Source: Bacteroidia bacterium (GTDB lineage Bacteria > Bacteroidota > Bacteroidia > Bacteroidales > Prolixibacteraceae). From it: a stretch of DNA of 36,991 nucleotides. The stretch is taken from positions 1 to 36,991 of the forward strand of contig JAPLDR010000051.1 in NCBI GenBank assembly GCA_026391655.1, written 5' to 3'. The stretch's first letter is position 1, and each line of letters begins with the position of its first letter. Below, piece after piece: positions 25,218 through 31,757 of the stretch. Under the pieces are notes generated by a model. The model was not told the origin of the DNA, made no database searches, and was given only the letters and a program-made list of their open reading frames with translations. A program made the translations under genes and the position numbers.

Positions 25218-26729
25218 ATGATGGAAAAGAAATTCACCGGCGGATGGGCGCAGGGTGTCATTATCCGAAAGGAAATCGACAAATATTTGATTGATGGTAA
25301 GGACTTTATCAACGAAGAGGATATCTTTGCCCGACTTCATAAAAATATAAATCCGGATTCGAAACTGATCCGTGATATTCTTCAAAAATCACTTTCCATT
25401 AAAACACTTGCCCCCGATGAAACAGCCGCTTTGCTGAATGTGACCTCTCCCGAATTATGGGAAGAGATTTTTCAGGCAGCACTTGAAGTTAAGAAAAAAG
25501 TTTATGACAACCGGATTGTCTTTTTTGCACCGCTCTACTGTTCAAATTATTGTGTAAACAACTGTGCTTATTGTGGTTTCCGGGAGGCCAACAACCGTGA
25601 AGTAAGACGAATCCTTACCCTTGACGAGATCAGACGCGAAACCAGCTCGGTGTTGAATGAAGGTCACAAAAGACTGATTCTGGTATTCGGTGAACATCAG
25701 CTTTCAGATGTGGATTATATGTCAGCAGCAGTGAAAGCAGTTTACAGCGTTGAAGAACCGGCTCCGGTTTCGGGTCGCCCTTCATCAATCCGACGAGTCA
25801 ATATTAATGCCGCTCCCATGGAGATGGCCAAACTGAAAATTCTCAAAGAGGCTGGTATCGGTACTTATCAGGTGTTTCAGGAGACCTATCATCACAAAAC
25901 ATATCAGACGGTTCATCCTGCCAACACGCTTAAAGGTAATTATCTGTGGAGAATATATGCACTTCACCGGGCTATCGAAGCCGGGCTCGACGATGTTGCA
26001 ATCGGTGCACTCTTCGGATTGTACGACTGGCGTTTCGAAGTGATGGGGCTGTTATATCATACGCTTGATCTTGAGAGGCAATTTGGCATTGGTCCTCACA
26101 CCATCTCGTTTCCGCGTATGACTCCCGCGTCGGGCTCCGCCTTAAGTTCTGACTCCACCTATCATGTATCAGACGCCGATTTCAAAAAACTGGTTGCAGT
26201 ACTCCGACTCTCAGTGCCTACTGCCGGAATGATCGTCACAGCACGCGAAAAAGCCGGGATTAAAAAGGAAGTCATCCAACTGGGCTGCACACAAACTGAT
26301 GCATCAACACGCATTGGAATAGGAGCTTACAGTGATCAAAAAACAGAGAACGACCTCGATAAAAAACAGTTTACAATCGGTGATCCGCGCGATCTTGACG
26401 ATGTTATTCGGGAGGTTGGCAAAATGGGGTTTATTGCCTCCTTTTGCACTGCTGGTTACCGTTGCGGACGGACAGGCCAAACCATTATGGGAATGCTGAG
26501 CCATTGTGAAGAAGGTAAATTTTGCAAACTAAATGCTGTTTTAACTTTCCGTGAATACCTGAGTGATTATGCTTCCGCAGAGACACGTGAGGTCGGAGAA
26601 CCATTGATCCTAAAAGAGATCCGCGAAATTGAGACGATGGACTATTTCAAAAGCAAACCTCACCTTTTACAGAAATTCCGTAGCGAATACAGCGAAATTC
26701 TAAGTGGAAAAAGGGACTTGTATTTGTGA
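25218..26729 (+). CDS. hydG: HydG-family radical SAM tyrosine lyase with altered C-terminal cluster motif
   Basis: HydG cleaves tyrosine to give the CO and CN ligands that, bound to iron, are built into the [FeFe]-hydrogenase H-cluster. The 503-residue protein (start MMEKKFTGGW) has the radical SAM motif CVNNCAYC (Cys112, Cys116, Cys119) in PLYCSNYCVNNCAYCGF, then HydG-like sequence throughout (VFQETYHHKTYQTVHP, ARVN-type barrel strands, GPHTISFPRMTPASGS) and the C-terminal LTFREYLSDYASAETR and RDLYL. The auxiliary-cluster motif, CxxC-x22-C in HydG, here reads C410-T-A-G413-Y-R-C416 with the last Cys at 436: the second Cys is Gly (GGT at 26454-26456), and Cys416 and Cys430 are extra. No hydE, hydF or hydrogenase gene is in the window. 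It could be a functional variant or a divergent paralog. Confidence 0.9.
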   Translation: MMEKKFTGGWAQGVIIRKEIDKYLIDGKDFINEEDIFARLHKNINPDSKLIRDILQKSLSIKTLAPDETAALLNVTSPELWEEIFQAALEVKKKVYDNRIVFFAPLYCSNYCVNNCAYCGFREANNREVRRILTLDEIRRETSSVLNEGHKRLILVFGEHQLSDVDYMSAAVKAVYSVEEPAPVSGRPSSIRRVNINAAPMEMAKLKILKEAGIGTYQVFQETYHHKTYQTVHPANTLKGNYLWRIYALHRAIEAGLDDVAIGALFGLYDWRFEVMGLLYHTLDLERQFGIGPHTISFPRMTPASGSALSSDSTYHVSDADFKKLVAVLRLSVPTAGMIVTAREKAGIKKEVIQLGCTQTDASTRIGIGAYSDQKTENDLDKKQFTIGDPRDLDDVIREVGKMGFIASFCTAGYRCGRTGQTIMGMLSHCEEGKFCKLNAVLTFREYLSDYASAETREVGEPLILKEIREIETMDYFKSKPHLLQKFRSEYSEILSGKRDLYL

Positions 26730-30175: not shown

Positions 30176-31757
30176 ATGGATAAGCAAATGAAACAAAATG
30201 GAACAAATGAACCGCTTAAAAACAAAGGGCAAGCTCCTGGGTTTAGTACGGTCAATCGGAGGAGTTTTGTCGGAATCATTGCATCGACAGCAGCTGCAAT
30301 AACCATTGTGCCTCGCCATATTCTCGGTGGAATCGGATTTATAGCCCCAAGCGACAAAACCACACTCGCTTATATCGGAGTCGGGACTCAGGGACTCAGA
30401 GAATTACTCCCTCTTCTAAATATTCCTAAATTACAGATTATTGCAGTTTGTGATCCGCAAAAAGAAGCCACCGGCTATCTCGACTGGGGCAAAGACGGAC
30501 TCAGAGATGAAATCAGGAACAAACTAATTAATCCCGGATGGAGTTCGGGTGGAGATAATACGATCCCCGGAGGACGCGATAACGGAAAAGCAATTGTAGA
30601 TGAATTCTACCAAAAAAATCGTCCTGAGCAGAAGCTAAATGGTTGTAATGCATATGCCGATTTCAGGGAACTTTTCGAAAAGGAGAAAGATCTGGATGCA
30701 GTTAAAGTGATGACCCCGGACCATCTCCATGGCCTTATCGCAACTGCTGCGATTAAAAAAGGGAAGCACATCTCGATGCACAAACCATTATCAAACAGGT
30801 TACTCGAAGGAAAACAGGTGATTGAGCTGGCACGGAATAATCCTAAAGTTACGACCCATCTGATTCCGTGGGATTCCAATGGCTCGATGGAATTGGTGAT
30901 GAAATGGATTAAAGAAGGGAAAATCGGAAAGCTCGAAGAGGTACAACTGGTCGAATAGACCCGTGTGGCCGCAATACCCAACTTTGCCAACTGATACTCC
31001 TGCAGTACCTAAAGATTTCAATTGGGATTTATGGTTAGGACCCGAAGCCAACCGCCCTTATCATCCCAATTATACGAATATGGTTTTCAGGGGATGGTAC
31101 CATTTTGGCGGAGGATCGATGGCCGATATGGGTCATTATAGTCTTTGGACAGTATTTAAAGCGCTCGGGCTTGAATCTCCGACCATTATTGAGCCCAATT
31201 TAAGCCATGTTTGTGGTCTGCGTGAATCCACAGCGTTCCAGGTAAAAAACGACTTCTCCTTCCCAATAGCTTGCTCGGTAAGGTTTAAATATCCAGCAAA
31301 GGGATCACGACCAGCTGTTAATTTGTGTTGGTACGACGGCGGAATGCGTCCTCCGGTTCCAGAGGAGTTATTCGAAGATGACAAGGAATTACCAGCCGAA
31401 GGAATGATGTTCGTCGGGGATAAAGGAAAAATACTTGCAGGATTTCATGTCGATAACCCCAGGTTGATTCCTGAAAAACGGATGAAAGGGATAGAAACCA
31501 ACCCAGTTAGTACAAATATTGCCAAACCGACTGGTTTTCAGCTATTTTTGGACGCATGCCGGAACGGGAAACAATGCCCGGGCAGTTTCATCGAAGCGAT
31601 GCCGATCACCGAAGCGGTAAATCTCTATGCAGTTGCGCTCAGAGTTGGTCGTCTGCTGAAATACGATGGTTCAAAAATGCTAATCACCAATGTCCCCGAT
31701 GCCAACAAATATTTGTCGCGCGGGTATCGCTCAGGCTGGAGTCCTGAATCAATTTAA
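30176..31757 (+). pseudogene. Tat-exported Gfo/Idh/MocA oxidoreductase, split by a 2-bp deletion near 30944
   Basis: The first part (30176-30958) has a Tat signal with NRRSFVG (Arg28, Arg29), the NAD(P)-binding TLAYIGVGTQGLREL (about 63-77) and HKPLSNRLLEG, the family's catalytic-Lys loop. It stops at TAG right after GKLEEVQLVE. In the next frame the expected continuation appears: reading GTACxxAACTGGTCGAATAGA with two bases restored gives V-H/Q-N-W-S-N-R-P followed by VWPQYPTLP, and then WLGPEANRPYHPNYT, GSMADMGHYSLW and a normal C-terminus ending at 31757. Restoring two bases gives a 527-residue protein, right for the family. Such enzymes act on sugars or glycosides in Bacteroidota. The ATG at 30963 is not a natural start. 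Sequencing error is possible. Confidence 0.85.

Follow-up and report, generated by a model that had tools for sequence, protein, structure and literature searches.

Models of CO and CN synthesis by HydG are built on enzymes whose auxiliary cluster has three cysteines and whose phenolate crown reads Thr-Ser-Ser. The window, by which we mean the whole stretch of 36,991 nucleotides of Prolixibacteraceae DNA that was analysed (contig JAPLDR010000051.1), carries a HydG gene whose product departs from both rules. A first-pass annotation had noted the first departure, a glycine at the second of the three cysteines, and had proposed either a paralogue making a different product or a second copy beside a canonical one. 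The locus raises the question of whether such a gene can be the organism's own working HydG. The features that bear on it are given below; class I is defined by Ser361 and class II by Asp361, and "class II" and "class IIb" are labels coined in this analysis.

25218 to 26729, + strand: HydG gene, class II, 503 amino acids plus stop (TIGR03955, PF04055, PF06968, AF2 model).
25551 to 25574, + strand: radical SAM cluster motif C112-x3-C116-x2-C119, intact (sequence).
26058 to 26060, + strand: His281, aligned with His265 of canonical HydG (alignment).
26241 to 26309, + strand: tyrosine-crown segment with A342, K349, D361 and T364 (Thr, Arg, Ser and Ser in class I) and R343 kept (alignment; roles from the accessible text of PMC9046217).
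26445 to 26525, + strand: auxiliary-cluster motif C410-x2-G413-x2-C416-x19-C436, that is, C-x5-C-x19-C (sequence, relatives, predicted helix).

Model score, fold and co-occurrence all place the window protein in the HydG family. It scored 420.9 bits against TIGR03955, the HydG equivalog model (curated cut-off, 312.15), matched both PF04055 and PF06968, and had as its nearest PDB sequences both solved HydGs, 4wcx from Thermoanaerobacter italicus and 4rtb from Carboxydothermus hydrogenoformans. Its AF2 model (mean pLDDT, 92.8) has the HydG fold, C-terminal domain included, and the best PDB fold match was 4wcx_A, with an rmsd of 1.7 and a TM score of 0.97 by target length. The likeness to these canonical enzymes runs over the full length and takes in the radical SAM motif, the first and third auxiliary cysteines and the aligned dangler histidine. 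C112, C116 and C119, correctly annotated before as an intact motif, are common to all 126 aligned HydGs. His281 is shared by every sequence of alignments A1 (56 sequences) and A2 (40 sequences); its canonical counterpart, His265, is the dangler-iron ligand. The window protein also shares the tyrosine lyase core of ThiH (2-iminoacetate synthase), its model matching the fold of 7pd1_A at 28% identity. ThiH is not known to have the C-terminal auxiliary-cluster domain of HydG. Two features of the canonical class were tested and are absent from the window protein, the cysteine motif and the crown; therefore, we did not place it in that class and regard it as lying outside.

The first of these features is the auxiliary-cluster motif. 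Canonical HydG has C-x2-C-x22-C, whereas the window HydG has C-x5-C-x19-C, with Gly413 for the second cysteine and a new cysteine three residues on. Translation of the gene agreed with the annotated residues: Cys410, Cys416, Cys430 and Cys436 are all encoded, and the Gly413 codon is GGT (26454 to 26456), one base from TGT. This single-base distance is the one point in favor of a sporadic mutation, a sequencing error or a decaying gene, an explanation to which we give next to no credence. Of the 80 nearest loci, 79 pair G413 with C416; the exception, L047, has the Gly but breaks off soon after it. This is the opposite of a lone sporadic change in an otherwise canonical clade, and mutation or error at G413 is thus refuted by the relatives. 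The 80 loci span Bacteroidota, Fidelibacterota, Cloacimonadota, Bacillota, Thermotogota, Spirochaetota, Omnitrophota and Nitrospirota, among others; as the best matches to the window protein in a species-genome collection they owe part of their uniformity to selection, a bias that two phylum samples and 60 extra sequences were meant to counter. The window gene is under purifying selection, with pN/pS values of 0.073 against L030, 0.088 against L031, 0.144 against L037 and 0.202 against L041, the synonymous sites being near saturation for the last two. Gene decay was rejected on these values, and the frame, described earlier as not decayed, runs for 503 residues to a stop.

On the sequences compared, the G413/C416 pair is a clade signature, more than chance or sequencing error would give. 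All 46 rows of the tree clade that holds the window protein, thinned by identity, have G413 and C416. I423, E432 and K437 mark every one of the 81 sequences of the window's type and are absent from the 45 other aligned rows, five of which are further class II Gly/Cys sequences. The two additional cysteines, both suggested earlier as substitutes, fared differently. Position 430 is Cys in 36 of the 86 sequences with G413 and C416; because it is not conserved among them, Cys430 is not a general substitute ligand, and we rejected it as the replacement. For Cys416 the suggestion holds up as plausible. A short helix follows the first auxiliary cysteine at 412 to 415 in the AF2 model of the window protein and at 396 to 399 in that of the canonical control L115 (mean pLDDT, 90.8), the two models being compared by secondary structure only. 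Since Cys416 lies three residues beyond 413, about one helical turn, relocation of the ligand is plausible, and Cys416 could plausibly stand in for position 413 at the auxiliary cluster.

We then considered the genomic role. The annotation had called this HydG solitary, which is right for the neighborhood, as no hyd gene lies among the neighbors scanned within the window, but not for the genome. On other contigs the assembly (149 contigs, 96.35% complete) encodes HydE (345.5 bits), HydF (L006, C138:43322-44542) and two group A6 [FeFe]-hydrogenases, whose genes lie some 3.5 kb from each other on one contig (C23:82597-83508 and C23:86132-87043). The hydrogenases match H-cluster motif patterns, and HydE and HydF match their cluster motif patterns. 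HydF scored 326.7 bits against the TIGR03918 cut-off of 325.55. HydF falls under that cut-off in nine genomes of relatives (G296 to G304). With the window organism's HydF barely over the cut-off and those of relatives under it, these HydFs have diverged as well. A search of the 96.35%-complete genome with the window protein (E ≤ 0.001) found no second HydG, canonical or otherwise, so the idea of a second copy beside a canonical one was dropped; the two other, weak matches were HydE and an MqnE-like protein (L002).

The same pattern holds among relatives. We chose 50 of the 80 variant loci for whole-genome searches and found a single HydG match (E ≤ 1e-80) in 48 of these genomes; G330 and G339 have a second HydG, canonical and with a much higher model score. 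HydE was matched in 48 of the 50 (45 over the cut-off), HydF in 47 (38 over the cut-off) and PF02906, the [FeFe]-hydrogenase family, in 40. Hydrogenase went unmatched in 10 genomes, HydF in 3 and HydE in 2, absences that are not interpretable because genome completeness is not given. In the fetched and often short flanks, hydE, hydF or hydA homologues were present at 38 of the 80 loci (hydE at 29, hydF at 25, hydA at 20). In L041 to L045, which include two Prolixibacter species, hydA is directly upstream of hydG. In 10 of the 20 loci compared (L030 to L049), hydG sits between an HD-domain gene and a GH97 gene, the arrangement seen in the window. A paralogue of HydG that makes some other product and has nothing to do with hydrogenases would fit the diverged pocket described below and the lack of hyd genes among the scanned window neighbors, but it is very improbable given one HydG match per genome in nearly all cases, a maturation set that is largely present and the hyd genes in so many flanks. 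The paralogue proposed in the first-pass annotation is thus disfavored. Co-occurrence is not proof of role, as limited hydrogenase activation without HydG is cited in the accessible text of PMC9431212.

The second departure from canonical HydG is in the tyrosine crown. According to the part of PMC9046217 available, the HydG residues matching ThiH T299, S318, S321 and R306 hold the tyrosine phenolate and are strictly conserved in both enzymes. Canonical HydG has Thr-Ser-Ser-Arg at these positions, whereas the window HydG has Ala342, Asp361, Thr364 and Lys349. All 76 class I sequences, 16 in the first count and 60 read in addition, have Thr-Ser-Ser-Arg in the crown columns. The 110 class II sequences, the window's included, all have Asp361, which follows from the definition. 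At 342 they carry Ala (109) or Cys (1); at 364, Thr (81), Ser (28) or, in L014 alone, Pro; and at 349, Arg (81) or Lys (29). R343, aligned with TcThiH R300, is invariant. The count over 126 aligned sequences left out L047, which ends early, and L059, which is split over two frames, and a gene fetched more than once was counted once (L145 and L093 are one gene).

In a tree of 111 sequences built with the pocket and motif columns left out, one branch separates classes I and II (SH-aLRT, 99.7); this tree and the first, both with rows thinned by identity, were made by a quick method with no bootstrap. The first tree had E. coli K-12 ThiH, on a very long branch, as its outgroup in place of L002, which was discarded as MqnE-like. 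E. coli ThiH, unlike the window HydG, has the Thr-Ser-Ser crown of class I, and it is this shared crown, not the position of the root, that gives the direction of the change. The window's type and class I differ at 25 columns, of which 413 and 416 do so by the grouping itself. By its sequence, the window HydG is thus a member of a widespread branch with what appears to be a remade tyrosine pocket. Class I and class II HydGs occur together in G330 (L086 and L114), G339 (L097 and L115) and G388 (L159 and L206).

Because the crown residues differ, unchanged substrate binding in class II is not assured. In class II enzymes tyrosine might be bound as its neutral phenol, Asp361 serving as base or acceptor; alternatively, the substrate might be another aromatic amino acid. 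The change from Thr-Ser-Ser, the crown of all 76 class I sequences and of E. coli ThiH, to Ala-Asp-Thr/Ser would fit this, as would the tie between crown residues and phenolate binding in the accessible text of PMC9046217. However, the arginine aligned with TcThiH R300 has been kept throughout, and the genomes still point to a role in H-cluster maturation. We hold altered substrate handling to be a tentative reading with less than an even chance; its neutral-phenol form is compatible with our main explanation, a working HydG with the usual product.

How the second cysteine varies across class II bears on the relocated ligand. All 76 class I sequences keep Cys413; in class II, where the set is weighted toward the window's type, 14 of 110 do. 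Positions 413 and 416 of class II are Gly/Cys in 86, Asp/Cys in 4, Gly/Ala in 6 and Cys with another residue in 14. The class II pocket with canonical Cys413 (CTAC or CTSC) is found in L015 (G196), L155, L158 and L163 to L173. Since this combination exists, the pocket change alone does not mean loss of the cysteine. The Bacteroidota-wide sample had HydG in 17 of 296 genomes: two are Gly/Cys (the window's and L014), one (L015) combines class II with Cys413, and the 14 others are class I with Cys413. The sample from the Caldanaerobacter phylum gave a match in 158 of 299 genomes, and from these matches we read 90 HydG sequences (the 30 best loci and 60 chosen from the list). The best 30 loci were all class II, with 13 Cys413, 7 Gly/Cys, 4 Asp/Cys and 6 Gly/Ala, and a class II enzyme was the sole HydG matched in 29 of the 30 class II genomes among the candidates scored, which in some genomes were the best five. 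Searches for HydF and PF02906 covered 30 class II genomes, 29 from this sample plus G160, and both were matched in every one. At least five changes at position 413 are needed on the 111-sequence tree. The G160 HydG is Gly/Cys; the only PF02906 match of that genome (C107:47544-48227) is in a 1349-aa open frame, possibly a fused hydrogenase, about 6 kb from the HydG match.

The six Gly/Ala sequences (L149, L152, L159, L160, L161 and L162; Gly413 and Ala416) have no Cys at either position, and they weaken the argument for C416 as a necessary ligand. They raise the alternative that the class II auxiliary cluster is held by Cys410 and Cys436 only, the third site being filled by a non-cysteine group or free L-cysteine, with C416 no ligand at all. 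The variation at 413/416 within class II favors this, and no substitute cysteine is common to the six. A Gly/Ala enzyme is the only HydG matched (E ≤ 1e-60) in five of the six genomes (G534, G406, G546, G643 and G501), each with HydF and hydrogenase matches, but in some of these genomes only the best five candidates were scored, which leaves room for a second HydG; the sixth sequence, L159, sits in G388 beside the class I copy L206. Two further observations count against two-cysteine binding: C416 is invariant in the window's tree clade, and a HydG mutated in its C-terminal cluster motif no longer supported maturation (King 2006, as cited in the accessible text of PMC9431212). We consider this alternative unlikely.

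The explanation we favor, and judge probable, is that the window gene is the organism's own working HydG, making the usual Fe(CO)2CN synthon with a class II pocket and with the ligand moved from 413 to 416. It draws on what was shown, namely the sequence, clade signature, co-occurrence, purifying selection and predicted fold. The enzyme would cleave tyrosine with its radical SAM cluster and assemble the H-cluster precursor, Fe(CO)2CN, at the C-terminal auxiliary iron-sulfur cluster, and the product would serve the two [FeFe]-hydrogenases encoded elsewhere in the genome. In class IIb the second auxiliary ligand would be shifted by three residues, and one turn of helix could place its thiolate on the same face. 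We infer that C416 binds the auxiliary cluster, that tyrosine remains the substrate and that the product is unchanged. A possible history, though a rather doubtful one, is that the pocket changed first and the second auxiliary cysteine then became dispensable, being moved by three in one large branch and lost in others, where clusters held by two protein cysteines would build the synthon.

The C-x5-C-x19-C spacing is already in print for one Clostridium HydG: in the text of PMC9431212 available, the C. autoethanogenum candidate CLAU_RS03260 is assigned the motif C-x(5)-C-x(19)-C. We compared it with the window HydG by motif only. The same text cites purification of the C. autoethanogenum [FeFe]-hydrogenase and, from Duffus 2012, variation of auxiliary-cluster sequences among HydGs. 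According to the accessible part of PMC4694547, Caldanaerobacter subterraneus subsp. tengcongensis makes a cytoplasmic [FeFe]-hydrogenase (citing Soboh 2004) and has four maturase-like genes, one most like HydG. The Caldanaerobacter subterraneus record searched here (G336), which differs from the strain with the reported hydrogenase, encodes one HydG only, and this is of the window's type. When the four tengcongensis genes were put together in a synthetic operon, no protein and hence no activation resulted, according to that account; thus, it was no test of the enzyme. Our literature search, thin on subscription journals, returned no description of the class and no biochemistry on a class II enzyme, and the motif spacing was not tied there to a clade, a pocket or loss of the cysteine.

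The window HydG very probably does the usual job as an unusual enzyme, a functional HydG with what its sequence suggests is a relocated auxiliary ligand and a remade pocket. A widespread branch breaks both of the rules on which current models rest, and views on which HydG residues are essential may need revising. Class II enzymes are natural mutants for asking which auxiliary-cluster ligand is needed and whether the phenol must bind as phenolate. As a conjecture, class II may also explain hydrogenase-bearing genomes in which motif searches find no HydG, such as five of eight acetogenic Clostridium species in the accessible text of PMC9431212.

Elsewhere in the window, a GFO/IDH/MocA-type oxidoreductase appears to be spread over two consecutive + strand frames, 30176 to 30958 and 30963 to 31757, with the N-terminal domain PF01408 matched in the first and the C-terminal domain PF19051 in the second. 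This split gene appears to be a pseudogene or an assembly error.
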